Below the pieces are notes generated by a model. That model was not told the DNA's origin. It saw nothing but the letters and a program-made list of their open reading frames with translations, and searched no databases. Below are positions 7,812 through 26,815 of a stretch of DNA of 64,000 nucleotides, piece by piece (the first letter of the stretch is position 1; each line of letters opens with the position of its first letter). The DNA is taken from the NCBI RefSeq assembly GCF_900183975.1, contig NZ_LT853882.1, positions 2,907,501 through 2,971,500 of the forward strand, read 5' to 3'. This DNA is from Xanthomonas fragariae (lineage in GTDB: Bacteria > Pseudomonadota > Gammaproteobacteria > Xanthomonadales > Xanthomonadaceae). The position numbers were made by a program, and so were the translations under genes.

Positions 7812-8747
7812 TCAATAGCTGCCCACCCGCACGCGCAGCACTACAGGCATCTCGCCCGCTGCATCCACGCGGCCGAAGTTGAGGCCGTAGTCGGTCTGGT
7901 CGCCGTTGAGCTGTTTTTCCATCTGCCAGCGTCCATCAACATACTGCACCTGCTCCACGCGCAACAATTGTCCATGCTTGGTATCGGCCGCATCGCGGAA
8001 AAATTCAATGCGTGCAGCCATGCCGGTAACCAAAAATTCCTCCGGCCCCAGTTGGGCCACAAGCAGCCGACCGGCGTGGTCGTCGTTGCCGGGCAGAATC
8101 GCCGGGGCATCGCCCCAGAGCGGAGCCCCAAAGGAGATCTTGGCCTGCCAATCGCCGAAGCGCAACGTGCGTTGCGGCGCACCGGGTTGCTCGGCCACCG
8201 CCTGCAGCCGGCCGTCGAAGGCGGCCTGGGCGATGATGCGCTGCATCGGCGCCAGCAGATTGAAGTTGACCGCATGCGCCGCCATCGCGGCACGGTTGGC
8301 GTCGCTATCGGGATTGCCGTCGATGCCAAATACCGAAAAACCTACCCCACCCTGCCCCAGCACATGGAATAGATATGGCGCGGTCGCCGCTTCGAAGCCG
8401 GTTTCCGATACCCATGCAGGATTGTCCGGCCGCGCGTACTGACCGATGACCTTGGTGTATTCGTTGTAATCGTTGGTGTAGATGTCGGTGCCGATAAAGT
8501 CGATCGATGGCGTGGCCGCGCGCCACAGCGTGAACATGTTGACCGTCGCACCGCCGGACGGATAATCCAGCCCCGGATAGCGCTTGCCCTTGTAGCGCAG
8601 CCAGGTGTTGACGTAGAGCGGCAACGGATACGCACGCTTGCCGGCGGCGGCCACCTGTTCGATATACGCGGCGGTCGCATGCGCATTGAAGGCTTCAGCA
8701 GCCTCGGCGCCGAACAGTTGCTGCCAGCTGCCCCGCGGTTTGCCTAG
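7812..8747 (-). pseudogene. GH35-like beta-galactosidase, C-terminal half (split by IS)
   Basis: This is the 3' half of the gene whose 5' half is at 9903-10608. In frame from the IS boundary it reads GKPRGSWQQLFGAEAAEAF and continues to the stop at 7812 (LRVRVGSY). It holds the region expected to carry the catalytic nucleophile (PAWVSETGFEAA) and a C-terminal beta domain. An ATG at 8654 could start a truncated product, but it would lack the acid/base glutamate. The orientation and reading frame are continuous with the 5' half once the IS and one target copy are removed. Confidence 0.88.
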
Positions 8748-9902
8748 GGAACCTCTGAACAGCGCACTTCAAATGCGCGACACTACACACCTACGTTGAG
8801 GAGTCATCCATGCAACTGACGTTCGGTGACGCTGAAGGTTTGGGCAAGCGCAAGCAGACTCGCCGCGAGATCTTCCTGGCCGAGATGGAGCAGGTGGTTC
8901 CGTGGAGGCATTTGCTCGGACTGATCGCGCCGCACTATCCGGTGTCGGGGCGGCCTGGTCGACAGCCGTACGCACTGGCGACGATGTTGCGGATTCATTT
9001 GCTGCAGCAGTGGTATGCGTTGAGCGATCCGGCGATGGAAGAAGCGTTGCACCAGATCCCGACCTTGCGCCGTTTTGCCCGGCTCGGCGGTTTGGACAAT
9101 GTTCCCGACGAGACCACGATTCTCACTTTCGCCGCTTGCTGGAAACCCATGGCCTTGCAGCGCGGATGCTGGAGGCCGTCAACGCGGATCTGGTGCGCAA
9201 GGGTCAGAGCCTGCGGTCCGGCACGATCGTCGATGCAACCCTGATCGCTGCGCCCATTTCGACCAAGAACACCGACCGCGCGCGCGACCCTGAAATGCAT
9301 CAGACCAAGAAAGGCAATCAGTGGTATTTCGGGATGAAGGCACCCATCGGCGTGGATGAGTTTTCCGGGCTGGTGCACCACGTCCGTTGTACGGCTGCCA
9401 ATGTGGCCGATGTCACGGTGACCCACGCATTGCTGCACGGCAAAGAAGACAGTGTGTTCGGCGACAGCGGCTACACCGGTGCGGACAAACGCGAAGAACT
9501 GCAGACCTGCAAGGCTGGTTTTTTCATTGCCGCCAAGCGTTCGACGATTCAAGCCATTGGCAACAAACGCGAGCGCCGCCAGGAAGAACGTTGGGAATAC
9601 TTCAAAGCAAGTGTGCGTGCGAAGGTGGAGCATCCATTCCGCGTGATCAAACGCCAGTTTGGCTACACCAAGGTCCGCTATCGCGGCTTGGCCAAGAACA
9701 CCGCGCATGTGCTGACCCTGTTCGCACTATCCAATCTGTGGATGGTGCGCCGGCAGTTGCTGCCGGCCAGGGGATAATGCTGTCTGGCGCCAGCCAACGC
9801 CGCAAGAAACCGTAGAAACCGTATCGTACGCATCAACTCTGTGCGCTATTGGCACGCAGCAGGCTTGAATTTTAGAGGTCTGGTGCGTTGTTCAGACCTT
9901 CC
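8748..9902 (+). mobile_element. IS5-family insertion sequence, copy 2 (transposase frameshifted)
   Basis: A 1155-bp element, one base shorter than copy 1 and in the opposite orientation. It is inserted in the GH35-like gene. The flanks are CTAG (8744-8747) and TTAG (9903-9906), a 4-bp target duplication with one mismatch. The inverted-repeat ends match those of copy 1. A few substitutions relative to copy 1 (for example HQIPTL versus HEIRTL in the transposase) show the copies are not freshly duplicated from each other. Confidence 0.92.
8810..9777 (+). pseudogene. IS5-family transposase (copy 2), 1-nt deletion
   Basis: The same transposase as copy 1, but with one A missing at about 9125: copy 1 reads CTCAACTTTCG, this copy CTCACTTTCG. 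The first frame runs from 8810 to a stop at 9244. The remainder, starting with the sequence for FRRLLETHGLAARM and including the DDE residues and the terminal LLPARG, continues in another frame to 9777. The product as encoded lacks the catalytic core. Confidence 0.92.
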
Positions 9903-10608
9903 TTAGCGCGCGTGCGATCTTGGCAGGCACCGGTTGCGCGAACGCCGCCTCGCCTGCCGGGCCGTAGCCGCGCACTGTGCCAATCGCACCGGGCTCGTTT
10001 TCCACCTGCACCAAAATCACCGTGTGGCGGTCGCCATCGATATTGCGCAAGTGCTGCATCAACGCAGTGAACGCACGTACATCAGCCTGCACGTTGGCGG
10101 CAACATGCGGGGACAGCACATCCACCGGTTCGCCATTGGCATCGCGCATCCGCGGATAGGTCGCCTCGTCGCGCTTTATCCACTCCGGCACGTAATGCAT
10201 CTGGCCGTTTTTCCAGCTGCCGAACCACAGCAACGCAACGCGCAAGCCTCGCTTGCGTGCGCCGGCAATCAATGCATCCACATTGGTGGTATCAAAACGC
10301 CCAGGCGCCGGTTCGAACTGCTCCCAATACACCAGCGCTTCCACGGTATTGGCATGCAGCGCGACCACTTCATCCAGTGCCTTGGGCAACACCGCCGGCC
10401 AGGCGTTGGAGTTGTGCAGCTGCGCGGCCAGCACGGTGTACGGCGCGCCATCGACGATCACCGCATGGCGACCATTCTGGGTAATGAAACGCGGCAGTTC
10501 TTCTGCGGCGGCGTGCACGGGCAAACCGCTTGCCAGCATCGCCAGCGACCACACCAGAAATGCGAGGCGCCTGCGCTGTTGCGCCGTAGCCAGAAAAAAC
10601 AAACGCAT
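9903..10608 (-). pseudogene. GH35-like beta-galactosidase, N-terminal half (split by IS)
   Basis: The 5' half of a secreted beta-galactosidase-like enzyme. It starts MRLFFLATAQQRRR with a Sec signal peptide (LAFLVWSLAMLASGLPVHAAA), then a TIM-barrel start (NAWPAVLPKALDEVVALHAN, VYWEQFEPAPGRFD). The acid/base glutamate lies in VQVENEPG, about residue 205. The frame hits the IS at ALR and stops about ten bases inside it. Its ATG overlaps the stop of the upstream protease gene as TAATG, so it was the last gene of that operon. Beta-galactosyl side chains occur on plant arabinogalactan proteins and extensins, which fits the locus, but the substrate is not shown by sequence. Confidence 0.88.
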
Positions 10609-12938
10609 TATCGCGCCCCCGAAGGCAGGGAATTCCAATGTGGTGTGGGTTCGTTGCGCAGATGGCGCACAAAGAAATCGTACTGACGGCGCTGCACATA
10701 GTCGATCGGCCCGCTGGACCGGCCCACCGAATGCTCGCCACCGGGCACGTTGAGCAGGTCGAAGTCCTTGCCGCTCTTGATCAACGCATCGACCACCTGC
10801 GCGGTGGAAGCCGGGTCGACATTGCTGTCCTGCTCGCCGACGATAAGCAGCAGATCGCCCCGCAGCCTGTCCGCATTGACAACGCCCGAGGCGTGCGCAT
10901 AACCGGCATCCACCGGCCAGCCCATCCACTGCTCGTTCCAGCTGATCTTGTCCATGCGGTTGTCGTAGCAACCGGCGTAGGCAACGCCCACTTTGTAGAA
11001 CTCCGGATGGCGTTCGAGCGCGCCCAGCGTGCTCTGCCCGCCGGCCGAGGCGCCGTAGATGCCGACCCGGCTGATATCGTAGGACGGATCCTTGGAGGCC
11101 AACGCGCGATGCCAGGCGATGCGATCTGCAACGCCGGAATCGCCCAGGTTTTTCCACGCGACGTCATGAAACGCCTTGGAGCGATTGGCGGTGCCCATGC
11201 CATCGATCATCACCACAATGAAGCCAAGATCGGCCTGCGCCTGCATGCCGATCTGCTTGTCGCCACCGGAATGATAGCCGAACGGCCAGAACGTCTTCGG
11301 CACAAACGCATCGTGCGGCCCGGCGTAGATGTTTTCGATCACCGGATATTTTTTGCGCGAATCGTAATCGCGCGGGCGCACCACCATGCCCCAGATGTCG
11401 GTGCGTCCATCGCGGCCCTTGGCCACGAAAGTCTCCGGCGCCCGCCAGCCTGCCGCTTGCAACTTGTCGATGCTGCCCTGTTCTGCTTGCTGCAGCAATC
11501 GCCCATCGATGGCATGCAGCTCCATCACCGGCGGCAGATCCGGGCGCGAATACGTGTCGACGTAATGCCGTCCATCGCCGGCAATCGCCACATCGTGATC
11601 GGCATCGGTGTGGGTCAGCCTGGTCAGCTGGTGGCCTTCGAAATCCACGCTGTAAAACTGCCGGTAATACGGATCCTTGCCCGCATCCATCCCACTGGCG
11701 GTGAACCAGATGCGCCGCTGCGCATCGTCAACACGCAGCACATCACGCACGATCCACGCACCGCGGGTGATCTGCCGTTTGACCTTGCCGGTGCGGCCGT
11801 CGAACAGGTACAGATGCCGCCAACCATCGCGTTCGGAGATCCACAGCACCTCGTCGCCGCGCCCATCGACATCGTGGCGAAAGCTGCGGTTGGCATACAC
11901 AAAGGTGCGTGCGTCCTCGCCCACTGCGACATGCGCGCGAGCGCTCTGCGCGTCCACCGCAATCACGCGCATGCGCTGAAAACCACGCTGTACGTAGTCG
12001 AACGCCACGCTGCGGCCATCGCTGCGCCACTGCAACGGCGACAACGAATACGCGTTGGAGAACAAGGCGCTATCCACATCACGGCGCTCGCCATCCACGT
12101 CGAACAGCACGGGCCGCTCCACATCCACCGCATCGCCTGGTTTGGGATACAGCTGGGTGTGCACTATCGGTTGACCGCCTCCGGCAGGCGCAGCCTCCAC
12201 GCGGGTGACACGGCGGGCAAGCCCAGGACGCACGCGATACACCGCCAACCGCTGCGAATCCGGCGACCAGGCGATGCTCTCCGGGTCGAAGTAATCGTCT
12301 GCACGCCCATCGTTACTGAGCCGGGTCACCTGACCATCGGATAAACGGCGCAGAATCAGGTTCCAGCCATCGGCGAGCGTTTCCCAGCGTCCGTCGGGCG
12401 AGCGACGCGGTGTATTGTCGGCCAGCAGGTCGGGGTCGCGCACCACACCGAACCCGCGTGGCCGTGCGGCTGCATCATCGCGCGCGCAGCGGTAGGTCGG
12501 CAGCGTGCAGCGCCAGGCATCGTCGCCCAGCTCGAAACGGATCTCCCCGTTGCGACGTTCGCCCTCCTGCGCATAGCTAAAGCGCTCGAATGGCAGCCGC
12601 AACGCGGTGTAGGTTTTCCCGGTTGCCTCACTCAAGCCCCGCGCCACGCGCGCCTGATCGAACGCCGATTGTTTTTGCAGTGTGGCCACATCTTCGCTGA
12701 CGAAGGCGAACCCACCCGGCACCGTCTTGCGGTAATAGAACGTGCTGTCGTCACGCCATTGCGCCGGCCATGCCACGTTCTCGGTCAGGGTGATCCACTG
12801 CTCGCGCAGACCAAGCGAGCGCTGATAATCGGCCGCGCTCGGCGCGGCCTGCGTGGCCGTCGACACCAACACGCTGCACGCCGCCAAGCCCCATAAACAG
12901 CGCAAGACCAATGCGCCGCAGCGCACATCATTCACCAT
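10608..12938 (-). CDS. Dipeptidyl peptidase IV-like S9 serine peptidase
   Basis: A 776-aa exported prolyl oligopeptidase-family enzyme; DPP IV members release X-Pro dipeptides from peptide N-termini. The start at 12938 has a strong GGAGGAGG Shine-Dalgarno inside the end of the permease gene (11-bp overlap) and gives a signal peptide ending STATQAA. An N-terminal beta-propeller (DPPIV_N, about residues 90-480) precedes the alpha/beta hydrolase domain. The catalytic triad is visible: S631 in YGASAGG, D704 in GEQDSNVD and H736 in GGEHSVGR. It is probably periplasmic. The stop overlaps the next ATG (TAATG), so translation is coupled on both sides. With the downstream Xaa-Pro type peptidase and hydroxyproline enzymes it would process proline- or hydroxyproline-rich peptides. 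Confidence 0.93.
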   Translation of the reverse strand: MVNDVRCGALVLRCLWGLAACSVLVSTATQAAPSAADYQRSLGLREQWITLTENVAWPAQWRDDSTFYYRKTVPGGFAFVSEDVATLQKQSAFDQARVARGLSEATGKTYTALRLPFERFSYAQEGERRNGEIRFELGDDAWRCTLPTYRCARDDAAARPRGFGVVRDPDLLADNTPRRSPDGRWETLADGWNLILRRLSDGQVTRLSNDGRADDYFDPESIAWSPDSQRLAVYRVRPGLARRVTRVEAAPAGGGQPIVHTQLYPKPGDAVDVERPVLFDVDGERRDVDSALFSNAYSLSPLQWRSDGRSVAFDYVQRGFQRMRVIAVDAQSARAHVAVGEDARTFVYANRSFRHDVDGRGDEVLWISERDGWRHLYLFDGRTGKVKRQITRGAWIVRDVLRVDDAQRRIWFTASGMDAGKDPYYRQFYSVDFEGHQLTRLTHTDADHDVAIAGDGRHYVDTYSRPDLPPVMELHAIDGRLLQQAEQGSIDKLQAAGWRAPETFVAKGRDGRTDIWGMVVRPRDYDSRKKYPVIENIYAGPHDAFVPKTFWPFGYHSGGDKQIGMQAQADLGFIVVMIDGMGTANRSKAFHDVAWKNLGDSGVADRIAWHRALASKDPSYDISRVGIYGASAGGQSTLGALERHPEFYKVGVAYAGCYDNRMDKISWNEQWMGWPVDAGYAHASGVVNADRLRGDLLLIVGEQDSNVDPASTAQVVDALIKSGKDFDLLNVPGGEHSVGRSSGPIDYVQRRQYDFFVRHLRNEPTPHWNSLPSGAR

Positions 12939-14514
12939 CGTCCTCCTCCAACGCCAGCTCATCGCTGCGCAAACCACTGCGCGCGCCCCAGTGGTAAACG
13001 AACAAAGCAATCAACGCCACGCTAAGCGTGTCAAACGGATACGCGATCCAGCCATGACCGCCGAACGTACCGGCCCACGACACCGCCATCACCAGCACGA
13101 AGAACACGATCAACCACAACGATGCGCGCACCTGACGCAGCAAGCGTGCCCGCCCTTCGCGCGAGGGCAAGCGATACAGCACATACAGCGCGAATGCGAC
13201 CACTTGCAAACCGAGCAACCACGACAAAGTGGGCCAGGTGGACCAGTAAACAATCAACGCTGCCACCATGAACGACAACGGCCCCAGCAGCGCGAAGCCA
13301 CGCACGCGGAATGGCCGCGGCACGTCTGGCGCGCTACGGCGCAACGCCGCCACCGTCACCGGGGCCACCGCATAGCTCAGCACCAGTGCAGCTGATACCA
13401 CGCCGATCAAGGTCTCCCACGACGGGAACGGCAGCGTCCAGAAGATCGACAAACCCAGGCTCAACCACAGCGCCGGACGCGGAATGCCCGACTCCGGGTC
13501 CACTCGCGTCAACACCGGCAAAAACGCGCCGCTACGCGCCCAGCCATAGACCACGCGAGGGGTGGCATTCATGTAGATATTGCCGGTGCCGCTAGGCGAC
13601 ACCATCGCATCGCAGATCACCAATGCGGCCAGCCACGCCATGCCCAGGGCCAGCGCGATGTCGTGATACGGCAACGCAAATGCCTTGTCGATGCCGCTCC
13701 AACCCGGCGCCAGCTGCGCGGCGGGAATAGTGCCCAGAAACGCCAACTGCAGCAGCACATAGATCACCGTGGACAACGCTACCGACAGGATCAAGGCAAT
13801 CGGAATATTGCGCTGCGGGTCGCGCACCTCGCTAGCCACCGACACGATCGGCGTCAGCCCCAGGTAGGCAAAAATGATGCCGCCGGCCGAGATCGCCGCT
13901 TCCACCCCGGCCATGCCCGAGGGTGCGAGCCCATGCACTGTGAGATTGCCTGGATTGAAGTGCTTCATCAGCAGCACGATCACCAGCATCGGCACCAGAA
14001 ACTTGAAGATGCTGACGATATTGTTGGCCAGCGCAAAGGTTTTGACGCTGAAATAATTGAGCAGGAAAAACAGCATCAGCAGTGCAAGCTGCACCAGCCA
14101 GCCCCAAACGCTGGGGCGGGTGCCGCCGGCCTGGTCGAGCACCGGAAACCAGGCCGCCGCATACTGCCGCGCAGCTTCCACTTCGATCGCAATCAGGCTG
14201 GAAAACGCGATCAAGGTGATGAAGCCGGTCAACGTGCCGAGCAACGCACCGTGCGAATACTCCGGGTAGCGCACCACTCCGCCAGCACGCGGCAATGCCG
14301 CGCCGAGTTCGCAATACACCAGGCCCAGCAGCAGTACCGCAATGCCGCCAAGAATCCACGACGCGATGCCGGCCGGCCCGGCAATCGAAGACACATGGCT
14401 GGCCGAAAACAACCAGCCCGAACCGAAGATCGACCCCAGCCCAATAAAGGTCAGGTCGGTTAGGCTGAGCCGTTTGCGGAACTTGCCTTGCATGGTCGCA
14501 CCGTGTGTGGTCAT
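12928..14514 (-). CDS. APC-superfamily amino acid permease
   Basis: A 528-aa inner-membrane transporter with about twelve hydrophobic segments. The N-terminus shows the APC signature (LTDLTFIGLGSIFGSGWLFSA), and ITLIAFSSLIAIEVEAARQ follows the third helix. A long charged C-terminal tail ends LALEEDDGE. The gene sits 55 bp downstream of a DUF885-type gene and overlaps the DPP IV start by 11 bp, so it is part of the same transcription unit. Uptake of proline, hydroxyproline or a related amino acid is inferred from context; the substrate cannot be read from the sequence. An internal start at MQGKFRKR (14493) is an alternative. Confidence 0.88.
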   Translation of the reverse strand: MTTHGATMQGKFRKRLSLTDLTFIGLGSIFGSGWLFSASHVSSIAGPAGIASWILGGIAVLLLGLVYCELGAALPRAGGVVRYPEYSHGALLGTLTGFITLIAFSSLIAIEVEAARQYAAAWFPVLDQAGGTRPSVWGWLVQLALLMLFFLLNYFSVKTFALANNIVSIFKFLVPMLVIVLLMKHFNPGNLTVHGLAPSGMAGVEAAISAGGIIFAYLGLTPIVSVASEVRDPQRNIPIALILSVALSTVIYVLLQLAFLGTIPAAQLAPGWSGIDKAFALPYHDIALALGMAWLAALVICDAMVSPSGTGNIYMNATPRVVYGWARSGAFLPVLTRVDPESGIPRPALWLSLGLSIFWTLPFPSWETLIGVVSAALVLSYAVAPVTVAALRRSAPDVPRPFRVRGFALLGPLSFMVAALIVYWSTWPTLSWLLGLQVVAFALYVLYRLPSREGRARLLRQVRASLWLIVFFVLVMAVSWAGTFGGHGWIAYPFDTLSVALIALFVYHWGARSGLRSDELALEEDDGE

Positions 14515-14569
14515 TCGTCGCCCCGAAGCATGAAAGTGCGGTTTCTACTGCGAAAATGACGTGCGTGGA

Positions 14570-16432
14570 TCAGTCGCTGGCAGGGGCCTTGGCATCTGCC
14601 GATGCATCTGCTGCATTGTCATCCGGATAGGGCGACACGCCACCGTCAGCGATGAAGCGGTCGATGCGCGCTTGCAGTACCGGCAACGGCACCGAGCCGG
14701 TCTGCAGCACCGCATCGTGGAAATTGCGCAGATCGAATTTTTCGCCCAAGGCAGCTTCGGCTTTGCGGCGCAGCTCCAGAATCTTCAGTTCGCCCAGGTA
14801 ATACGACAAGGCCTGCCCCGGCCAGGCAATATAGCGATCCACCTCGGTGCTGACTTCGTGCTCGCTCAGGGCGGTGTTGTCATGCAGATAGGCAATCGCC
14901 TGCTCGCGCGTCCAGCCCTTGTGGTGGATGCCGGTGTCGATCACCAGGCGGCAGGCGCGCCACATCTGATAGGTCAGATAACCGAAGCGGTCGTAGGGCG
15001 TGTCGTACATGCCCATTTCCTGGCCCAGATACTCCGAATACAACGCCCAGCCTTCGCCATACGCGGAGATGAAACCGTAGCGACGAAACTCCGGCAGCCC
15101 TTGCGCTTCTGCCGCCAACGGCATCTGCAGCGCATGGCCGGGCGAGGACTCGTGCAGCGTCAGCGCAGTCAGGTTGTACAGCGGCCGCGATGGCAGGTTG
15201 TAGGTGTTGACCAGATAGATACCAGGGCCGCCGCGGCCACCGGTGTAGAACGGCGCCAACTCCGGCGGCACCGGCTCGATGGCGAAGCGGCGCCGCGGCA
15301 GCCGGCCGATGTAGTCGCCCACCTTGGCATCCACACGCTTGGCGATCCACGCGGCCTGCTTGAGCAATTCTTCCGGCGTTTTGGCGTAGAACTGCGGGTC
15401 GGTGCGCAGGAAGTGCAGAAACGCAGGAAATACCGCCTGCCCGGCCGGGGGCTTGAAGCCGCTGGCGACAATGGTCTGGTCCATCTGCGCGCGCAACTTG
15501 GCCACTTCCTGCAAGCCGATCTGGTGTATCTGCTCCGGGCTCAGATCCAGCGTGGTGAACTCGCGGATCTGCGCGCGGTAATAGGCCTGCCCATCCGGCA
15601 AAGCTTCGCCAGCGAGCGTGGTACGCGCGCGAGGTTGGTACTCGTTGCGGATAAAGTCGAGCAATCTGGCGTAAGCCGGCAGCACCTGCGCATCGATCGT
15701 GTTGACTACCTGCTGCCGCAGTTGCGCCTGCACATCGGCCGGCAATGTCGCCGGCATCTGCTTGAACGGCGCATAGAATGGATTGGCCTGGCCCTTGGCC
15801 TGCACGACATCGGCGATGGACTGGTCGCGCCCAGTGAGCGTCACCCTGGGCTGGCTGAAACCGCGCGCCAGACCGGCCCGCATATTGTCCGTGTGCTCGG
15901 CGAAATAACGCGGGATATCGGCCAGCATTTTCAGATAGCGCCGATAATCATCGCGCGTGCGCAACTTGGCCTCGGCGCTGAAGCCCAGATCGCTCCAGAA
16001 CGACGAGTCGCTATTGAACGGCATTTCCCAGGCGCGAAAATGCTGCTGGTCCAGCAACACCAGCAACTGCTGCCGATACACCTGATAGCTCACCTGATCT
16101 TCGGCCGACAACTGCGCCTGCCCAATCGCATCCAGTTCCTTCAACGCCTGTTGCCAATACGCAGTGCGCAGATTTTGCGTGGCAACGTCGACCTTGGGCA
16201 GATGGTGGGACTGACTGCGCTGGGTGGCCTGATTGTTTTCATCCACCGCACCGGACAGCTGTGCCTGTCGCCAGCGCCATTCGCGTGTGTACAGCGCCTT
16301 GAAACGTGCCGCTGCGGTATTCTGCGTGGCCGCAGCGGGCTCGGCCGCCTGCGCGTGCACGGCAACGCCGCTCAGGCTGGCTGCAATCAATAGACTCAGT
16401 GCGCTGGCGCGTAATACGGCATTTGCGCTCAT
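14570..16432 (-). CDS. DUF885-family exported HExxxGH protein (second of tandem pair)
   Basis: A 620-aa protein starting at the ATG of an ATGA overlap with the previous gene, giving MSANAVLRASALSLLIAASL..., a Sec signal cleaved near VHAQA. It is helix-rich and shows the DUF885 hallmark LTLHESSPGHALQM (H427, E428, H433), a zinc-peptidase-like arrangement. It shares this architecture with its upstream neighbour (16429-18225): both have EDIHQIGL/EQIHQIGL-like segments and the late YLGQEMGMYDTPYDRFGYL/RLGKEIGFFKDPYNDYGRL match. The pair is therefore a diverged tandem duplication. A peptidase role on proline-containing peptides is inference from context. Confidence 0.85.
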   Translation of the reverse strand: MSANAVLRASALSLLIAASLSGVAVHAQAAEPAAATQNTAAARFKALYTREWRWRQAQLSGAVDENNQATQRSQSHHLPKVDVATQNLRTAYWQQALKELDAIGQAQLSAEDQVSYQVYRQQLLVLLDQQHFRAWEMPFNSDSSFWSDLGFSAEAKLRTRDDYRRYLKMLADIPRYFAEHTDNMRAGLARGFSQPRVTLTGRDQSIADVVQAKGQANPFYAPFKQMPATLPADVQAQLRQQVVNTIDAQVLPAYARLLDFIRNEYQPRARTTLAGEALPDGQAYYRAQIREFTTLDLSPEQIHQIGLQEVAKLRAQMDQTIVASGFKPPAGQAVFPAFLHFLRTDPQFYAKTPEELLKQAAWIAKRVDAKVGDYIGRLPRRRFAIEPVPPELAPFYTGGRGGPGIYLVNTYNLPSRPLYNLTALTLHESSPGHALQMPLAAEAQGLPEFRRYGFISAYGEGWALYSEYLGQEMGMYDTPYDRFGYLTYQMWRACRLVIDTGIHHKGWTREQAIAYLHDNTALSEHEVSTEVDRYIAWPGQALSYYLGELKILELRRKAEAALGEKFDLRNFHDAVLQTGSVPLPVLQARIDRFIADGGVSPYPDDNAADASADAKAPASD

Positions 16433-18343: not shown

Positions 18344-18365
18344 AGATTGGTGCGCCAGTTCAGGG

Positions 18366-19565: not shown

Positions 19566-21157
19566 GTGCCTGCTCCAAGATCGGCCGTGCTCCATTGCCC
19601 ATCGACCAGACGTGCGATGCCACCTGGATTGCGCTGGCGCAATTCGGCCGGCAGCAGCGCGTCCGGCACCGCGTCGTAGCTATGCAGTGCAGCGAAGCGA
19701 CGAATGGAGCCCGGCATGCCTACCGCGGTGAAGCCCGGATGCCCGGTGCTGGGGAACGGCCCCCCATGATTCTGCGCCGCGCTCACTGCCACGCCTGTCG
19801 GCATCTTGCTGTTGATCAAACGCCCGACGCGTGCGCGCAGCACCGGTGCGATGGCTTGCCAGGCCGCATCGTCGCTGCCATCGACCGCACGATACAAGGT
19901 GCCGGTGAGATTGCCTTCGAACGCGGCGGCAACCTGTTCCATCTGCGCAACGTCGCGCGCACGCACCAGCAGGCTCACAGGGCCGAAGGCCTCGGTCTGC
20001 AGCGCATGCGGGTTGGCGATAAACGCCTGCGCATCCACGCTCAACAAGGTTGGCGCATAGCGATGACCCTGCTGGCCGGTGTGCCCGCCGGCCAGCAAGG
20101 CTGCGCCGGCGGCACGCAAGCTCGCCACCCCTTGCTGCACGCCGGCCAGCCCCTCGGCCGAAAACAGCACCATCGGCATGGCCGCGTCGAAGTGCGCCGC
20201 GGTCGCTGCGACAAACGCATCGCCCGCTTCACCATGCGGCACCACCACCACACCGGGATTGGTGCAGAACTGCCCGCTGCCCAAGGTGCACGACGCAAAG
20301 AATTCCTGCGCCAACGCCGCGCCGCGTTCGGCCAACGCGCCCTGCAACAGGAACACCGGATTGACGCTGGACAGCTCGGCGTAGAACGGCACGCCGGCCG
20401 CATCGGCCGCCGCCTTCAACGCAAGTCCGCCCCCACGGCTGCCGGTAAACCCGATCGCACCTAGCCGCGCATCGCCCGCCAATCGCAGGCCGAGGGCGTT
20501 ATCGAAGTGATACAGCAACTGCACTGCCGCACCCGGCAGACCGGCTGCGAGCAGTGCCTGATGCGCGAGCTGCGCCATGCGCTGGCTGATGGCCGGATGC
20601 AGTGGATGCGCCTTGGCGATCACCGGATTGCGTGCGCCGATTGCCGAAGCGAAATCGCTGCCGGCAACCGCGTTGAAGGCGAACGGGAAATTGTTCGGGC
20701 CAAACACCACTACCGGCTTGCCCAGCGGCGCCAGATGCGAGCGCAGATCCGCGACGGTGTCGATGATGGGTTGTGTCCAGCTGTAGTTGCGCACCGCCTG
20801 TGCGGCTTGGCGCAACTGCCCGCTGGTGCGTGGCAGTTCGTTGCCGCGCAGGCGTGTGGGCGCTGGCAATGCGGTTTCGGCATGCGCCAACGCCACCAGC
20901 GTGTCGGCATCGGCATCCAGCGCGTCGGCATAGGCATCCAGGAATGCCGCGATCTGCTCGACCGGCGCTGTAGCCAGTTCCGCGGCCACCGCGTGCGCTG
21001 CCGCAACCGCGGTCTCGATATCATCCGCACCGCTGACCGGGAATAAAGGCCCGATCGCCTCGCCAGTAGTCGGGTCGGCGGCGCGGAAGCTGCCGGTTGC
21101 AGCGCGACTGGGTTGCCACTGGCCGGCCAGCAGGACGGGTTGGATCGTATCGTTCAT
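19562..21157 (-). CDS. Alpha-ketoglutarate semialdehyde (2,5-dioxopentanoate) dehydrogenase
   Basis: A 531-aa aldehyde dehydrogenase, the last step of hydroxyproline catabolism: 2,5-dioxopentanoate plus NAD(P)+ gives 2-oxoglutarate. The Rossmann region (VFGPNNFPFAFN, IGFTGSRGGG), the general-base glutamate E261 (YAELSSVNPVF) and the catalytic C298 (SGQFCTNPG) are visible. The ELSSVNP and GQFCTNPG forms are typical of the KGSADH subgroup. It is separated from the deaminase gene by 202 bp containing a strong hairpin and overlaps the M24 peptidase start by 4 bp. Confidence 0.93.
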   Translation of the reverse strand: MNDTIQPVLLAGQWQPSRAATGSFRAADPTTGEAIGPLFPVSGADDIETAVAAAHAVAAELATAPVEQIAAFLDAYADALDADADTLVALAHAETALPAPTRLRGNELPRTSGQLRQAAQAVRNYSWTQPIIDTVADLRSHLAPLGKPVVVFGPNNFPFAFNAVAGSDFASAIGARNPVIAKAHPLHPAISQRMAQLAHQALLAAGLPGAAVQLLYHFDNALGLRLAGDARLGAIGFTGSRGGGLALKAAADAAGVPFYAELSSVNPVFLLQGALAERGAALAQEFFASCTLGSGQFCTNPGVVVVPHGEAGDAFVAATAAHFDAAMPMVLFSAEGLAGVQQGVASLRAAGAALLAGGHTGQQGHRYAPTLLSVDAQAFIANPHALQTEAFGPVSLLVRARDVAQMEQVAAAFEGNLTGTLYRAVDGSDDAAWQAIAPVLRARVGRLINSKMPTGVAVSAAQNHGGPFPSTGHPGFTAVGMPGSIRRFAALHSYDAVPDALLPAELRQRNPGGIARLVDGQWSTADLGAGT

Positions 21158-21304
21158 TGCGGCACCTTCAGTCGCATGGAGTCAGACCCTGCGCACTGTG
21201 CAGCAGCGGCCGACCAAAAAGCAGGATGAGACTGTGGCGGTGAGTGCGACATTCTCATCGATCAACATAGCGCTACACGCGCGATGGCGACGCGTATCAC
21301 CAAT

Positions 21305-21340
21305 CCACACCGTGTGCTCACCTGCGAGCACACGGTGTGG
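21305..21340 (-). terminator. Perfect 15-bp hairpin between deaminase and dehydrogenase genes
   Basis: CCACACCGTGTGCTC (21305-21319) and its exact complement (21326-21340) flank the 6-nt loop ACCTGC, starting 20 bp after the stop at 21360. On the minus strand it is followed by ATTGG rather than a U-tract. It may therefore be an imperfect terminator, a processing or stability hairpin, or a protein-binding palindrome dividing the operon into two expression segments. Confidence 0.6.
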
Positions 21341-21359
21341 CGTCGTTGTCACTGCGTCA

Positions 21360-22265
21360 TTACAGCTTCGGCGCGGTGGCGATGGCGTGGTCGATGACCT
21401 TCAACGCAGCCTCGCGCTCGGCACCGTCGACCACCAGCCGCGGCGCACGTACGCGTTCGCTGCCCAGGCCCACTTTCTCCTGCACCAGTTTGATCAACTG
21501 CACGAACTTGGGCACGGTATCCAGGCGCAGCAACGGCAGGAACCAGTCGTACAGTTCCTTGGCAGCCGGGTAACCGCCATCGCGGGCGAGTTCGAACAAG
21601 CGCACCGATTCGTTGGGATAGGCATTGACCAGGCCGGCGATCCAACCCTTGGCGCCCATGCTCAGACCTTCGACGATGGCGTCGTCCATGCCGACCAGCA
21701 ACGCCAGGCGATCGCCGAGCAATTCCTGCAGCGCGGCGAAGCGGCGTACATCGCCGGAAGATTCCTTGACTGCCTGCAGATTGGGGAATTCGGCTGCCAG
21801 CTCGGCGATCTGCGACGGGCCGAAATCGGTTTTGTAGGCCACCGGGTTGTTGTACAGGATCACCGGCAGATCGGTCGCCGTGATCACCGCGCGTACATGT
21901 GCGCCCATCTCGCGCCAGTCGGTGGAATATACGTATGGCGGCAACACCATCAAGCCGCCGCAGCCGATGTTTTTGGCCGCCTTCGCCAGCGCCACCGCTT
22001 CGCCCGTCGCCAGGCTGGCGATGCCCGGCACCACCGGCACGCGGCCGTTCAATGCGGTGACCAACGTGCGCAGGATCGCCAACTTGTCTTCTAGGCTCAA
22101 CGTCGCCGCCTCGCCCAGCGAGCCCAGCGGCACGATTGCGGTGCAACCGGCATCCACCAGCGCATTGGCATGCTTGGCGAGGAAGTCGTGGTCGATCTCG
22201 CCAGAGGCGGTGAACGGGGTGGTGATGGCCGGCAATACGCCGTGCCAGAACGCAGCAATATTCAT
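21360..22265 (-). CDS. lhpC: DHDPS-family pyrroline-4-hydroxy-2-carboxylate deaminase
   Basis: A 301-aa class I aldolase-fold enzyme. In hydroxyproline catabolism this family converts cis-4-hydroxy-1-pyrroline-2-carboxylate to 2,5-dioxopentanoate and ammonia. The Schiff-base lysine is K167 (QAVKESSGD), Y138 lies in VILYNNP, and the GSLGEAATLS loop matches the family GTTGE-type loop. The start at 22265 overlaps the preceding stop (ATGA). Dihydrodipicolinate synthase itself is possible by sequence, but the neighbours (epimerase, D-Hyp dehydrogenase, KGSA dehydrogenase) make the deaminase call far more likely. Confidence 0.9.
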   Translation of the reverse strand: MNIAAFWHGVLPAITTPFTASGEIDHDFLAKHANALVDAGCTAIVPLGSLGEAATLSLEDKLAILRTLVTALNGRVPVVPGIASLATGEAVALAKAAKNIGCGGLMVLPPYVYSTDWREMGAHVRAVITATDLPVILYNNPVAYKTDFGPSQIAELAAEFPNLQAVKESSGDVRRFAALQELLGDRLALLVGMDDAIVEGLSMGAKGWIAGLVNAYPNESVRLFELARDGGYPAAKELYDWFLPLLRLDTVPKFVQLIKLVQEKVGLGSERVRAPRLVVDGAEREAALKVIDHAIATAPKL

Positions 22266-23575
22266 GGATGATTCCCTTGCGAGTCGGAAGTGAACGAGTC
22301 GGCCAGCGCCGCGAGGCGGACCGGGAACAACGGCGGCCGGCGGCCGGCGTCGGTGGAAAGATCGGGCGGGCAACGGCCCAGTTCGGCCAACGCGGTGCCG
22401 CAGATGCGGCCCTGGCAGGCGCCCATGCCGCAGCGCGACGCGAGCTTGGCGTCGCGTGCATCGCTGAAGCTATCCAACGCCCGCAGCGGCACGTCTTCGC
22501 AGCGGCAGATCAGCGTGTCCGGCTGCGCCAAAGTGCGGATGCGAGGATGCAATGCGAATTGCTGCTGCAGTAATTCGGCAAATGCGCGCGCGGCGCGACG
22601 ACGCGGCTGCAGGCGCAGCGCCGCGTCGGATGCATCGGCGGCCATATGCCCGGCCATCGCACCTTCGATCAGCGCGCAATCGCGTCCGCCGATACCGCAG
22701 ACTTCGCCAGCAGCATACACCTGCGTCACGCTGGTGCGCAGCAGCGTATCCACGCGGACCTGTTGATGCGCGCCACACGCTTCCAGCCGACAACCCAGCA
22801 ATTGCGCAAGCTCGGTGTTCGGCACCAGGCCATAGCCCACCGCCAGCTGATCGCAGGCGATACGCGTGCTGCCGGTGGGCCCTTCAATCGCGACTTCGCG
22901 CAGTTGCGTGTCGCCGTGTGCGGTGACCACCACGCTGCCGGCGCGATATGCAACGGCACGCAACTGCACACGCAGCGCCACTGCTTGCGCCGCCTTGCCC
23001 GGCCAGCGCCACAACTGCAGCGCGAACTGCCGCAATGCGGCAGCGCAGGTTTGTTCGTAGATGCCGAGCACCCGCGCGCCATGCCGCTGCAGGGTGGCCG
23101 CGCTGGCCAGCAACAACGGTCCACTACCGGCGACCACCACGCGCTTGCCAGCCAGCGGCCAACCCTGTTTGGTTAGTGCCTGCGCGGCGCCTGCACCGGT
23201 GACGCCGGGCAAGGTCCAGCCGGGAAATGGCAGCAGCAGTTCGCGCGCACCGGTAGCCAGCACCAACGCGGCGTAATGCAATTGCAGAGTGCCGTCCGGG
23301 CCATCGGCCAATAGCCAGCCCGGTTGCGCCAGCAGAATCTGCGTGCGCGTCAGCAGCGTGATCGACGCATCGCCGGAGACCTGCCGCAACAACGCGCGCG
23401 CATCCGCTGGCGCACCGTGCCGCACATCGTTGCGCCACACCTGCCCGCCCGCATGCGGCTGCATGTCCACCACGCCCACGCGCACGCCATGACTGGCCGC
23501 CGCCCGCGCCGCGGCCAAGCCGGCCGGGCCAGCACCGATCACCAACACATCGAAATGCTGCACGCGCTCAGCCAT
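22262..23575 (-). CDS. D-hydroxyproline dehydrogenase, FAD/NAD-binding subunit with C-terminal Fe-S site
   Basis: A 437-aa flavoprotein subunit of the HcnABC/LhpBEF-type amine dehydrogenase. The N-terminal dinucleotide fold is DVLVIGAGPAGLAAARAA, and a second fold lies near KRVVVAGSGPLLLASAA. The C-terminal BFD-like cysteine cluster reads CRCEDVP ... CGMGACQGRIC, which would hold a [2Fe-2S] centre. The start at 23575 overlaps the ferredoxin-like subunit by 8 bp. The heteromeric complex oxidises cis-4-hydroxy-D-proline and passes electrons toward the respiratory chain at the membrane. Confidence 0.88.
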   Translation of the reverse strand: MAERVQHFDVLVIGAGPAGLAAARAAASHGVRVGVVDMQPHAGGQVWRNDVRHGAPADARALLRQVSGDASITLLTRTQILLAQPGWLLADGPDGTLQLHYAALVLATGARELLLPFPGWTLPGVTGAGAAQALTKQGWPLAGKRVVVAGSGPLLLASAATLQRHGARVLGIYEQTCAAALRQFALQLWRWPGKAAQAVALRVQLRAVAYRAGSVVVTAHGDTQLREVAIEGPTGSTRIACDQLAVGYGLVPNTELAQLLGCRLEACGAHQQVRVDTLLRTSVTQVYAAGEVCGIGGRDCALIEGAMAGHMAADASDAALRLQPRRRAARAFAELLQQQFALHPRIRTLAQPDTLICRCEDVPLRALDSFSDARDAKLASRCGMGACQGRICGTALAELGRCPPDLSTDAGRRPPLFPVRLAALADSFTSDSQGNHP

Positions 23576-23813
23576 CGGTGCGTACCTGCATGCCATCGCG
23601 CGCACCCACCAAGCACGCGCGTTGCTGGCCGATGCCATCGATACGCACCCGGCATTCAAAACACACGCCCATGCCGCACAACGGCGCGCGTGGCTGGCCA
23701 CTGCACGACTGCCGAAAGTGCAGCGTGGCCTGTGCCACCGCAGCAGCCACGCTGGCGCCGGCCGGCACTTCGACCGGCTGCGCATCCACATGCAGACGCA
23801 CGGTCGCGCTCAT
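23568..23813 (-). CDS. D-hydroxyproline dehydrogenase, small (2Fe-2S) subunit
   Basis: An 81-aa Fer2_4-type ferredoxin-like protein (HcnA/SoxX-like) with its cysteines in CSGQPRAPLCGMGVCFEC and a later ACLV. The start at 23813 is the ATG of an ATGA overlap with the preceding oxidase gene. It is part of the three-gene dehydrogenase and probably relays electrons between the two flavin subunits. Confidence 0.88.
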   Translation of the reverse strand: MSATVRLHVDAQPVEVPAGASVAAAVAQATLHFRQSCSGQPRAPLCGMGVCFECRVRIDGIGQQRACLVGARDGMQVRTDG

Positions 23814-25000
23814 GCGGCCGCGCCGTGCACTGCACGCGTCGGCGCGTACGGGGATGGGTCGATGGCAGGAGTGCGCCCGAGCAGGCTGTCCACAATCATT
23901 CGTGCGCTCCCCAGTGCCGTGGTAACACCCAGGCCCTCGTGACCAGCGGCCACCCACACATCGCGGCGGCCGGGCACCGCACCAAGATAAGGGCGCCCGT
24001 CCGGTGTCGCCGGCCGCAAACCGGTCCAGACCCGGATCGCCTGCAACTCGCGCAACACCGGCAAATACGCGAATGCCCGCTGCAACATCTGCTGCAGCAC
24101 CGGCATCGACAGCGTGCGATCGTGCTCGCCGAACTGGCGCGACGAGCCGATCAGAATCTGCCCGGTTGGCCGCGGCTGCACATTGAAGGCAACGCTGGTG
24201 TCGTCGACGCCATGCGCCGAATCGGCGTAGCCCAGCTCCAGCAACTGATGCCGGATCAACCCCGGGTGGCGATCGGTGATGACCAGATGGCCCTTGCGCG
24301 GGCGCAAGGCCAGCTCGGGCAGCAACTGCGGCAAGGCAACGCCGCTGGCGACCAACACGGGGCCGGCCAGCGCCTGACCATCGTCCAGACGCACACCGTG
24401 CGCCTGCAATTGCTTCACGCTGCGGCCGGCAAACAGCTGTGCGCCCGCCTTGCAGGCCAGCCTCACCAGATGCCGCGCCACCCGTGGCGGGTACACCACT
24501 GCCTCATCGGGCACGCGCATGCCGCCGGCCAAGCCGGGCACCAACAGCGGCTCCAGCGCATATAACTGTGTCGCATCGATCGCTTCGGCATGCAGATCGG
24601 CCGCCGCCAGCCGCGCGATCTTGGCCGGCACCGCCGCCAGTTCGCGTGCATCGCGGGCCACCCACAGCGTGCCGCAGCGGCTGAACTCGGCCTCACTCAG
24701 TTGCGCAAAACGCTCCCACAAACGCAGCGAATACGCAGACAACGCCAGCTCGGCAGGGCTGTCGTCCATCGCCACCAGATGCCCCATCGATGCAGCGGTG
24801 GAGCCACCGCCGATGGGCCCCGGCTCAACAATCGCCACGCGCAGCCCTTCGCCAACCGCAGCCTCGGCACAGGCCGCTCCGACAATGCCGGCACCCACCA
24901 CAATCAAGTCATAGCTGCGTCGGGTGGACGCAACCGACGGCACAGCATCGGCAGCCGGCATACTGACAACGTCCTCCGATCCTGGCCGCAGTGCATCCAT
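23810..25000 (-). CDS. lhpB: D-hydroxyproline dehydrogenase, DAO-type FAD catalytic subunit
   Basis: A 396-aa D-amino-acid oxidase-fold (DAO) protein with the dinucleotide motif DLIVVGAGIVGAACAEAA at residues 31-48. Further FAD and substrate regions are GPIGGGSTAASMGHLV, LRPRKGHLVITDR and the C-terminal GLRPATPDGRPYLGAVP ... GHEGLGVTTALG. The start at 25000 shares one base with the epimerase stop (TGATG); a second ATG (MPAADAVPS) is an alternative. It oxidises the D-hydroxyproline made by the epimerase, forming the pyrroline acid used by the DHDPS-like deaminase. Glycine or proline oxidase activity is an alternative, but context argues against it. Confidence 0.9.
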   Translation of the reverse strand: MDALRPGSEDVVSMPAADAVPSVASTRRSYDLIVVGAGIVGAACAEAAVGEGLRVAIVEPGPIGGGSTAASMGHLVAMDDSPAELALSAYSLRLWERFAQLSEAEFSRCGTLWVARDARELAAVPAKIARLAAADLHAEAIDATQLYALEPLLVPGLAGGMRVPDEAVVYPPRVARHLVRLACKAGAQLFAGRSVKQLQAHGVRLDDGQALAGPVLVASGVALPQLLPELALRPRKGHLVITDRHPGLIRHQLLELGYADSAHGVDDTSVAFNVQPRPTGQILIGSSRQFGEHDRTLSMPVLQQMLQRAFAYLPVLRELQAIRVWTGLRPATPDGRPYLGAVPGRRDVWVAAGHEGLGVTTALGSARMIVDSLLGRTPAIDPSPYAPTRAVHGAAA

Positions 25001-25938
25001 CAGGCCACGATACCCCAAGCAAACGGGTCGGCAGGGTCGATCAGCAACTGCGCGCGCGCGATGATATAGGCATGCCCGCTGATACGCGGCGCAATGCCAC
25101 GCGCGCTTGCGCGATAACTGCCTTCGAACGCGCTGCCCAGAATGCCTTGCTGCACCCAACGCTCACCTTCGACCAGCTTGCCATCGGCGGCTAGGCAGGC
25201 CAGCTTGGCGCTGGTACCGGTGCCGCAAGGCGAGCGGTCGTACGCCAACCCCGGGCACAGCACGAAATTGCGTGCCACACCGCTGCCGTCGGGCGCGGCG
25301 CCGTTGACTTCGATATGGTCGATCTGGCCACCTGCCAACCCAGTAATGCCGGCTGTTTCCAGCGCTAGCCGGATCGCTTCGGTGTAAGCAGTCAACTCGC
25401 GCTGATGCGCCAGATCGAGCGCGCACGGTGCCTGTTCGGTGATGAAGAACCAGTTGCCGCCCCAGGCCACGTCGCCGCGCACCCGGCCGTGACCGGACAC
25501 GTCCACCTCCATGCCGGTCGCAAAGCGATAGCTTTCGACATTGTCGACTGACACCGTGCCGTCTTCGGCCAGCTCCACGCCTACCGTGCCGACCGGCGTT
25601 TCGATGGTGTGCTGGCCTGGCGCGATGCGCCCCAGCGCGGCCAAGGTGCGCACCACCCCGATCGTGCCATGCCCGCACATGCCTAGGTAACCGACATTAT
25701 TGAAGAAAATCACCCCGGTACAGGCGCTGGGCTCGCGCGGCGGCAGCAACAAGGCGCCGACCATGGTGTCCGAACCGCGCGGTTCACAGGCAATCGCGCT
25801 GCGCCACTGGTCGAATTCGCTGCGAAACCGTTCGCGGCGCTGCGCCAGATCGCCATCGCCCAGATCGGGGAAGCCGGACAGGACCACGCGGGTGGGTTCG
25901 CCGGCCGTATGGGAGTCGATGACATCAATGGTATGCAT
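25000..25938 (-). CDS. lhpA: 4-hydroxyproline 2-epimerase
   Basis: A 312-aa proline racemase-family enzyme. Both catalytic cysteines are present: C88 in GMCGHGTIG and C238 in DRSPCGTGTSAKLA. This separates it from the trans-3-hydroxyproline dehydratase branch, which has Thr at the second position. It converts trans-4-hydroxy-L-proline to cis-4-hydroxy-D-proline, the entry step of the pathway. It is the first gene of the operon, transcribed away from the AraC-type regulator across a 160-bp control region. Proline racemase is the main alternative. Confidence 0.93.
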   Translation of the reverse strand: MHTIDVIDSHTAGEPTRVVLSGFPDLGDGDLAQRRERFRSEFDQWRSAIACEPRGSDTMVGALLLPPREPSACTGVIFFNNVGYLGMCGHGTIGVVRTLAALGRIAPGQHTIETPVGTVGVELAEDGTVSVDNVESYRFATGMEVDVSGHGRVRGDVAWGGNWFFITEQAPCALDLAHQRELTAYTEAIRLALETAGITGLAGGQIDHIEVNGAAPDGSGVARNFVLCPGLAYDRSPCGTGTSAKLACLAADGKLVEGERWVQQGILGSAFEGSYRASARGIAPRISGHAYIIARAQLLIDPADPFAWGIVA

Positions 25939-26098
25939 GGCTCATGCTCCCACTGCCAGCCCGCAAGCGGCTAGCGTGCAATGCGAAGTCAAAATGCGGA
26001 AATCTGCACAATCGCTCACCTGATTCACAGCCCCGCGTTTGCGCTAGGATCATCGCTGGGCCGCATCTTCGTGCAGCCGTCAAATCGTGACCGCCACC
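25939..26098. promoter_or_regulatory. Divergent control region of the hydroxyproline operon and its regulator
   Basis: A 160-bp gap between the epimerase (minus) and the PAS-AraC regulator (plus). It contains the direct repeat ATGCGAA (25981-25987) / ATGCGGAA (25994-26001), with a 13-bp offset, a form suited to AraC-type binding, and a small inverted repeat AGCCCGCAAGCGGCT near 25959. On the minus strand TTGACT (over 25990) is a possible -35. The operator assignment is inference only. Confidence 0.4.
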
Positions 26099-26815
26099 AT
26101 GACTCCGATGGACCTCAACCTTCCCGCACTGGAAATGCAGACGCTGTTCGACGCGCTGCCGGACGTAGTGTTTTTCATCAAAGATGGCGAGGGACGCTAC
26201 ACACATTGCAACCTTACCCTGGTGCGCCGGCTGGGACGCAAGTTGCGCAGCGAGATCATCGGCCGTTCGCCGCTGGAAGTCTTCTCATTGCCGCTTGGCA
26301 GCCGCTACATGATGCAGGACCGCCGCGTACTGTGTGGCGAGCTCATCGACAACCAGCTCGAAGTGCATCTGTATCCCAGTCGGCTGCCCGGCTGGTGCCT
26401 GACCTTCAAGCGCCCACTGTGCGAGGCCGACGAAGTGATCGGCGTCGTCGGCATCTCGCGCGATCTGGGCCAGCCTGACAGCCGTCACTCAGCTTACGAA
26501 CGCTTGAGCCAGGTAATGGACCATATGCAGGCGAACTTCGGCGAGAACCTGCGCGTGCAGCGCCTGGCCGACTTGGCCGGTTTGTCGGTGGCACAACTGG
26601 AGCGGCACTTCCGCCGGGTATTCCAGGTGACCCCACAGCAACTGCTGACCAAGTTACGCATCGAATCGGCGATGCGGCTGCTGTACGGCGACGACAGCAT
26701 CGCTAGCGTCGGGCAACGCTGTGGCTTCGCCGACCAGAGCGCATTCGCGCGCCAGTTCAAGGCCACGGTCGGCATGACACCTCGCGATTACCGCGCGCTC
26801 AAAGGCCGGTTGTAA
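26099..26815 (+). CDS. PAS-AraC family transcriptional regulator of hydroxyproline catabolism
   Basis: A 238-aa regulator from the ATG at 26099; a GTG at 26087 would add four residues. An N-terminal PAS-like sensor (LFDALPDVVFFIKDGEGRYTH to about residue 125, ending GVVGISRDLG) is joined to a C-terminal AraC/XylS double helix-turn-helix (RVQRLADLAGLSVAQLERHF; SVGQRCGFADQSAFARQFK ... GMTPRDYRA). It diverges from the epimerase gene, so it very probably activates that operon in response to hydroxyproline or a pathway intermediate. A PAS sensor in place of the usual cupin-type arm is a noteworthy variant. Confidence 0.9.
   Translation: MTPMDLNLPALEMQTLFDALPDVVFFIKDGEGRYTHCNLTLVRRLGRKLRSEIIGRSPLEVFSLPLGSRYMMQDRRVLCGELIDNQLEVHLYPSRLPGWCLTFKRPLCEADEVIGVVGISRDLGQPDSRHSAYERLSQVMDHMQANFGENLRVQRLADLAGLSVAQLERHFRRVFQVTPQQLLTKLRIESAMRLLYGDDSIASVGQRCGFADQSAFARQFKATVGMTPRDYRALKGRL

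Follow-up and report, generated by a model that had tools for sequence, protein, structure and literature searches.

A candidate locus for the utilisation of plant hydroxyproline-rich glycoproteins in Xanthomonas fragariae, with a promoter box shared between its two halves

Why should genes for the breakdown of hydroxyproline stand in one row with peptidases, a permease and a glycosidase in Xanthomonas fragariae, a strawberry pathogen? The question arises from a 64-kb window (the whole stretch of DNA that was analysed, positions 2907501-2971500 of contig 1 in a genome of 4.33 Mb), for which a first-pass annotation had proposed a single regulon whose products take the sugars off wall glycoprotein, cut it up, import the pieces and burn them. 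On the strength of gene content, gene order and a promoter motif, we consider it probable (roughly 0.78) that these genes form a locus for utilising hydroxyproline-rich glycoproteins of plants, that is, extensins and similar proteins. The limits first drawn for it, 7812-26815, proved too narrow, because distal genes extend beyond them; the system continues for about another 24 kb, most of which is not in the window.

The core of the locus is a co-directional block of 11 genes on the minus strand (10608-25938), with a regulator gene divergent beside it. Six of the 11 are hydroxyproline genes (an epimerase, a three-part D-hydroxyproline dehydrogenase, a DHDPS-type deaminase and an aldehyde dehydrogenase), and every enzyme family of the route from trans-4-hydroxy-L-proline to 2-oxoglutarate is encoded.

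25000..25938, minus strand: 4-hydroxyproline 2-epimerase (Pro_racemase, 354 bits; C88 and C238)
23810..24961, minus strand: DAO-family FAD subunit, putatively of D-hydroxyproline dehydrogenase (PF01266, 220 bits)
23568..23813, minus strand: 2Fe-2S subunit (PF13510, 79.2 bits)
22262..23575, minus strand: second FAD/NAD-type subunit, putatively of D-hydroxyproline dehydrogenase (PF07992, 110.6 bits)
21360..22265, minus strand: DHDPS-type protein, putative pyrroline-4-hydroxy-2-carboxylate deaminase (PF00701, 198.3 bits)
19562..21157, minus strand: aldehyde dehydrogenase, putatively for 2-oxoglutarate semialdehyde (PF00171, 139.5 bits)
18366..19595, minus strand: M24 prolidase (PDB 4r60, 5cik and 5cde, about 810 bits, residues 12-409)
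16429..18225, minus strand: DUF885 protein a (PF05960, 554.7 bits; HEGVPGH; export signal by eye)
14570..16432, minus strand: DUF885 protein b (PF05960, 518.7 bits; HESSPGH; export signal by eye)
12928..14514, minus strand: APC amino-acid permease (PF13520, 144 bits; TIGR00909 below its cut-off)
10608..12938, minus strand: DPP IV-like S9 peptidase (DPPIV_N and Peptidase_S9; GASAGG; export signal by eye)

The epimerase matches PDB 4juu, deposited from X. campestris as 4HypE, with 642.7 bits over all 312 residues. For the aldehyde dehydrogenase, no NCBIfam equivalog stood above its own cut-off among the matches listed. The three structures closest to the M24 protein, presumably also from X. campestris, were deposited as proline dipeptidase, and this kinship points to an Xaa-Pro dipeptidase; its start codon may have been called too early, the true start being 19565, and there is a 34-bp overlap there. 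The DUF885 proteins are putative peptidases by their HExxPGH motif and their PDB relatives (for protein a, 3o0y, 3iuk and 3u24, named lipoprotein or uncharacterized), while the DPP IV-like peptidase has 2ecf and 5yp1 as relatives. These matches agree with much of what the first-pass annotation had named: the epimerase with C88 and C238 (by Pro_racemase, 4juu and the cysteine positions), the dehydrogenase subunits, the DHDPS-type deaminase and the aldehyde dehydrogenase (by Pfam), and likewise the Xaa-Pro-type peptidase, the two HExxxGH proteins (here HExxPGH, DUF885), the amino-acid permease and the DPP IV-like protease. Its description of tight spacing is right for several short overlaps (4, 8, 4, 4 and 11 bp) and passes over gaps of 38, 55, 140 and 202 bp and the 34-bp overlap at the M24 start.

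That the gene string should recur across Xanthomonas was a further expectation of the earlier reading, and it does recur beyond this genome. Eighty named loci were fetched by the M24 protein; the set is uninformative on M24-free operons because of that choice, and its gene counts are lower bounds because some loci stop at contig ends. In translated searches at least three of the five core hydroxyproline genes stood beside M24 in 77 of the 80 loci, and at least one in 79. The AraC regulator (at least 50% identity) was present in 73/80, DUF885 (at least 45%) in 65/80, the APC permease (at least 60%) in 53/80, the DPP IV-like peptidase (at least 55%) in 46/80, and the N- and C-terminal parts of GH35 (at least 60%) in 33/80 and 32/80. 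All 32 loci titled Xanthomonas carry the six hydroxyproline genes, AraC, M24 and DUF885 protein b; DUF885 protein a was found in 30 of the 32, the permease in 31, the DPP-like peptidase in 30 and GH35 in 27 (one locus, L019, stops at its contig end). One locus, L070 of Rhodanobacter sp. DHB23, has M24, AraC and DUF885 together without the hydroxyproline core. Eight Dyella loci (L058, L060, L065, L066, L068, L069, L072 and L076) have no close relative of the APC permease; each holds a weak match of about 25% identity, which in one genome (L092) is an APC-family permease.

Which enzymes, then, would remove the sugars? Gene calling of 15 regions, combined with translated searches, gave one distal order in X. 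hortorum, Xanthomonas sp. LMG 31884 and X. prunicola: GH35, a protein without a family name that we call c5, a TonB receptor, GH121, GH43, a second DPP-like peptidase, another TonB receptor and GH127, all co-directional save one opposite-strand gene between GH35 and c5. Linked GH121, GH43 and GH127 genes, the arabinosidase cluster for hydroxyproline-rich glycoproteins, are found in X. hortorum (G003) and X. prunicola (G004); the GH121 of X. hortorum matches PDB 6m5a at E 1.4e-203, and the NCBIfam model HypBA2 below its cut-off. A compact form in Stenotrophomonas rhizophila comprises M24, two DUF885 genes, the permease, DPP, GH35, c5, GH127 and a TonB receptor, and in Rhodanobacter sp. OK091 and Luteibacter jiangsuensis the permease, c5, GH127 and a TonB receptor are found. 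It is likelier that the key deglycosylating enzymes are these arabinosidases, which lie outside the window, than that GH35 is. Around GH127, Stenotrophomonas humi (L099) and Luteimonas saliphila (L091) have a different set, with a TonB receptor unlike the others and three further genes in common (clusters c25-c28).

The link between the arabinosidase half and the hydroxyproline half was counted in several sets of genomes. A search of 46 genomes for GH127 gave a match in 44. In 18 named genomes, picked for a close-looking match and the only ones checked for position on the same contig, M24 and the GH127-type gene share contig and strand and are 6.8-38.4 kb apart. A sample of the order, 121 genomes not chosen for linkage, contained a Pro_racemase match in 43, a GH127 match in 24 and both in 17. 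Nineteen genomes of its two main families are epimerase-positive: M24 lies beside the core in 15 (the window itself included) and not in three (G057, G165, G111), and in G074 the contig ends before the M24 position. Strong GH127 matches (E < 1e-100, a line drawn after viewing the list, with weak matches of 1e-36 to 1e-46 in further genomes) occur in 12 genomes of these families. In 11 of the 12, GH127 and the epimerase share a strand and are 12.5-40.3 kb apart; G047, the remaining one, lacks an epimerase. GH127 matches in G074 and G091 are weak only, and located elsewhere. The c5 gene was found in 8/121 genomes, always between epimerase and GH127. Chance neighbourhood was rejected, a naive product giving 5e-26 for the 11 genomes, a figure to be read as indicative because it ignores shared descent and the choice of E-value line. 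The order sample overlaps the named loci in several genomes, so the two sets are not independent.

Linkage alone would also suit a different account, which we think unlikely: the block could be a general scavenging operon for hydroxyproline and proline peptides of any kind, collagen-like ones included, that merely neighbours an arabinan- or pectin-degradation cluster. The promoter regions bear on this.

26087..26815, plus strand: AraC-family regulator bearing a PAS domain at its N-terminus, divergent from the hydroxyproline operon (Pfam HTH_18, PAS_4)
25994..26011, minus strand: 18-bp box TTRTGCnGAwTTCCGCAT, a likely operator, between regulator and epimerase
3963..3980, minus strand: second copy of the box, about 94 bp before c5 (profile and strict-pattern matches)

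We collected 68 intergenic stretches, from loci with divergent AraC and epimerase genes both matched near their first residues. The box occurs in 68/68, with its start 72-77 bp ahead of the epimerase match; CTA follows it at exactly 19 nt in 67/68. Against the 18-position consensus, which was drawn from these same 68 stretches, 63 sites have 0-3 mismatches, three have 4 and two have 5. Run on the window, the profile found two sites, at the hydroxyproline promoter and before c5, and none in 20 letter-shuffled windows. The strict pattern TRTGCNNANTTCCGCAY gave 39 matches in 22 whole genomes, which were selected because they have the locus, and 37 of the 39 fall inside the locus. Each genome has one at its hydroxyproline promoter (22 in all); 11 precede c5 by 93-101 bp, two stand before GH127 and two between M24 and DUF885. 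The other two (L147, G132:C1:3141204; L148, G037:C10:150333) were set aside, no related gene being recognised beside them without a family scan. The reversed pattern matched once in the same 22 genomes, and the genome of X. fragariae has exactly two strict matches, at the hydroxyproline promoter and before c5. A Roseateles locus has both the box and a related AraC gene; in G111 the box is present and the AraC position lies beyond the stretch read. The box was not found at the hydroxyproline operons of G057 and G165, where the 1.7-3 kb read upstream holds no AraC gene. From this pattern we infer that the PAS-AraC regulator binds the box. A box nearly exclusive to the two halves argues against a chance adjoining of a scavenging operon and a sugar cluster.

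So does a reshuffled version of the same assembly in another class. In a phylum sample of 398 genomes, scored by the best two candidates per genome, c5 was found in four, one of them the genome of X. fragariae itself and one a weak partial match. Around one genome of another class (G504), perhaps Alphaproteobacteria, c5 was found in 5/250 genomes, and all five hold c5, GH127, a TonB receptor, M24, an APC permease, a DHDPS-type gene and an epimerase within about 18-25 kb. The aldehyde dehydrogenase is there in 4/5, DUF885 in 4/5, GH35 in 3/5 and DPP in 1/5, with order and strands changed. Neither the box nor an AraC relative was found in these five loci. One block (G686) includes a GntR/FCD regulator and another (G590) a POT di/tripeptide permease.

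Taken together, these results would fit the following scheme for wall glycoproteins. Exported arabinosidases (GH43, GH121 and GH127-type), GH35 and probably c5 would strip the sugars, and exported proline-specific peptidases (DPP IV-like and DUF885) would trim the exposed peptides. Import of the products would fall to the TonB receptors and the APC permease. The prolidase would split Xaa-Pro and Xaa-Hyp dipeptides, and hydroxyproline would be converted to 2-oxoglutarate by way of epimerase, dehydrogenase, deaminase and aldehyde dehydrogenase. By binding the box before the hydroxyproline operon and c5 (before GH127 or DUF885 in other genera), the PAS-AraC regulator would tie the two halves together. 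Such substrates for the peptidases, the permease and c5, and induction by hydroxyproline, are what we infer.

Several observations weigh against a dedicated glycoprotein locus. The hydroxyproline core and M24 occur with no glycosidase in the stretch read in many relatives (for example G091, G116 and G136); the core can therefore serve hydroxyproline from any source, as general scavenging would have it. That alternative also draws support from the GH127-type protein, for which 5opj, and not HypBA1, is the top match in PDB, and from the HypR regulons of Alteromonadales, which join hydroxyproline catabolism, collagenases and proline dipeptidases (PMC5343134). In the five distant loci, neither the D-hydroxyproline dehydrogenase subunits nor GH121 nor GH43 were found at E 1e-12. 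In G372, from the same class as X. fragariae and from a different taxonomic order, c5 lies 8 kb from the contig start and adjoins an S9 peptidase, and the first 40 kb of that contig hold no hydroxyproline gene. GH127 had no match in G023 (X. pisi) and G043, the two exceptions among the 46 genomes; of the 11 linked genomes, three (G058, G080, G155) gave no c5; and in G053, G062, G063 and G076, of other families, both GH127 and the epimerase family are present and not within 45 kb of each other. Some Xanthomonas lack GH35, and the searches of the five distant loci did not find the dehydrogenase; for these reasons we regard the single regulon of the first-pass annotation as partly supported. Arabinosidase linkage, the shared promoter box and the reshuffled version speak for it; a GH35 gene that is broken in this strain, arabinosidases outside the window and a larger locus than was drawn require its amendment.

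Experiments on a relative bear on what the sugar-stripping half does. In X. euvesicatoria, XeHypAA (GH43), XeHypBA2 (GH121) and XeHypBA1 (GH127) degrade the hydroxyproline-linked arabinose of extensin (PMC6085000), proven activities that count against a scavenging operon that merely adjoins a sugar cluster. The genes are XCV2724 (GH127), XCV2728 (GH43) and XCV2729 (GH121), with a prolyl peptidase beside GH43, and the arabinosidases are up-regulated in the plant (PMC6085000). Families and order are the same in X. hortorum and X. prunicola, whose distal part also has a prolyl peptidase beside GH43, and from order and length we take the genes of this part to be probable orthologues of the X. euvesicatoria arabinosidases. 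Two results from that work go against a utilisation locus. GH121 is under HrpX (PMC6085000), and the arabinosidases may therefore answer to a second regulator; the triple arabinosidase mutant was unchanged in pathogenicity and non-host reaction, and no role of the enzymes in virulence was found (PMC6085000). The unchanged mutant also tells against another possibility, which we hold to be very improbable: that the function of the locus is to silence plant peptide signals that are hydroxylated and arabinosylated (HypSys, CLE or PSY type), and not to feed on wall proteins. The glycosidases and DPP-type enzymes would then inactivate the signals, and hydroxyproline catabolism would dispose of the product. 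Peptides of these types carry hydroxyproline-linked arabinose and proline-rich ends, which would suit such a function, as would up-regulation in the plant. The locus is, however, also present in Luteimonas, Dyella and Rhodanobacter, which are mostly soil bacteria.

Utilisation of wall glycoproteins as food would answer a published puzzle. X. euvesicatoria is unable to use L-arabinose, and the authors were puzzled over why the enzymes are kept (PMC6085000). Physical linkage, the shared operator-like box and the reshuffled version in another class together suggest a testable answer, namely that the peptide backbone is the food. We would give even odds to a stronger proposition: that a self-contained, AraC-controlled locus carries extensin from its glycan down to 2-oxoglutarate, that c5 is the first member of a new glycoside hydrolase family and acts on a hydroxyproline- or serine-linked sugar of plant wall protein, and that the arabinosidases are there to expose the peptide and not for the sake of the arabinose. 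The DUF885 proteins gain a likely context, and a candidate operator is named.

What kind of protein is c5?

1528..3885, minus strand: c5, 785 aa, Tat-like start, predicted (alpha/alpha)6 glycosidase-like protein

At E 0.001 it matched no family in Pfam or NCBIfam, the nearest being two weak Pfam rows at E 0.05-0.06, and no PDB sequence matched up to E 10. No family profile places it in a named glycoside hydrolase family, although by fold it may be kin to one. A first fold from 12 close sequences was too poor to interpret (predicted local distance difference test, pLDDT, 53.4); a fold from 18 sequences reached a pLDDT of 77.9, and from it we predict a glycosidase of the (alpha/alpha)6 type. Locus L067 was excluded from the c5 alignments for a stop inside the translated range. 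For enzymologists, c5 is a glycosidase-like family without a name, offered in a defined substrate neighbourhood.

How much of the locus is intact in this strain? The earlier description of a GH35-like galactosidase as one gene has to be withdrawn: an insertion sequence (IS) splits it, and the strain has no unbroken catalytic gene. The label IS5-type is our own and comes from the transposase domains.

about 9906..10608, minus strand: N-terminal part of the broken GH35 gene (PF01301; PDB 8faa, 417 bits)
7812..8747, minus strand: C-terminal part of the broken GH35 gene, DUF5597 (PF18120, 138 bits)
about 8734-9916 (between the GH35 parts, about 8748-9905), plus strand: IS5-type element inside GH35 with a frameshifted transposase (transposase Pfam match)
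1..1134, minus strand: 5' part of TonB-dependent receptor 1, continuing left of the window, with a stop near its N-terminus in this strain
G000:C1 2893716-2896706: TonB receptor 2, covering residues 11-1006 of the X. hortorum protein
G000:C1 from 2891082: GH127-type enzyme, 40 kb from the epimerase

Searched apart, the GH35 flanks adjoin within 0-4 bp in five relatives, so the element was inserted after the split from them. Another copy of the same element lies inverted about 1 kb away at 6469-7652, its transposase frame open. Left of the window (G000:C1) follow a GH43 fragment, a fragment of the second DPP, TonB receptor 2 and the GH127-type enzyme. The regulator, the hydroxyproline genes, M24, both DUF885 genes, the permease, DPP, c5, GH127 and TonB receptor 2 are open at full length; because the queries came from this genome, this means for all but TonB receptor 2 simply an open frame. 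Broken genes are GH35, TonB receptor 1, whose frame closes near the N-terminus, and the second DPP and GH43, both of them fragments; no GH121 was found in this genome. By its reading frames, the locus is decaying in this strain, and much of its deglycosylating front end has been lost.

A few neighbouring features deserve mention. At the place taken in relatives by GH121 and the start of GH43 there is a 2126-aa open frame (G000:C1:2898511-2904891); Pfam gave it one match, marginal and implausible, and a sequence resembling a plant-inducible promoter (PIP) box stands just before it (L084 position 11936). Another PIP-box-like sequence (window 1135-1159, minus strand) lies ahead of TonB receptor 1 and hints at HrpX control of that receptor in this strain; such a motif also precedes GH121 in X. 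prunicola, which accords with the published HrpX control of GH121. The pattern is not specific, since the same simple pattern also occurs inside the permease gene. Between GH35 and c5, on the opposite strand, an S53 protease of the Pro-kumamolisin/subtilase type (4210-5919) was rejected as a member of the locus: it is present in X. prunicola, but G003 and G010 have a different gene there, and no box precedes it.

How does this locus compare with known systems? The HypR regulons of Proteobacteria, governed by a GntR regulator, combine hydroxyproline catabolism with proline peptidases, collagenases and a peptide permease, and in the available part of that study include no glycosidase (PMC5343134); the present locus falls outside them, having an AraC regulator with a PAS domain, not GntR, together with arabinosidases. 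Genome-neighbourhood clusters of 4HypE, with 4juu among the deposits, contain epimerase, DAAO, DHDPS and aldehyde dehydrogenase, the same hydroxyproline enzyme families as here, with no glycosidase linkage in the text available (PMC4113996). In Bifidobacterium longum, HypBA2 and HypBA1 carry out GH121 and GH127 chemistry on hydroxyproline-linked arabinose (PMC6085000, PMC7263609); that system takes the sugar, whereas here the peptide backbone is the likely prize. The Xanthomonas xyloglucan locus with GalD likewise places a GH35 enzyme in a plant-wall utilisation locus (PMC8245568), but GalD is another GH35 (7kmn) with another substrate, and 7kmn scores far below 8faa against the present gene. 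Deletions of GH2 and GH35 genes in X. campestris, among which the present GH35 may have a counterpart, were without effect on virulence (PMC5958218). For the X. euvesicatoria arabinosidase cluster, the available text mentions no hydroxyproline catabolic operon, shared box or c5 (PMC6085000), and our searches of an open-access library showed no published link between such an operon and the arabinosidases. A nutrient utilisation locus is of a known kind; the use of glycan and peptide backbone under one box, and c5 itself, are new as far as we have searched.

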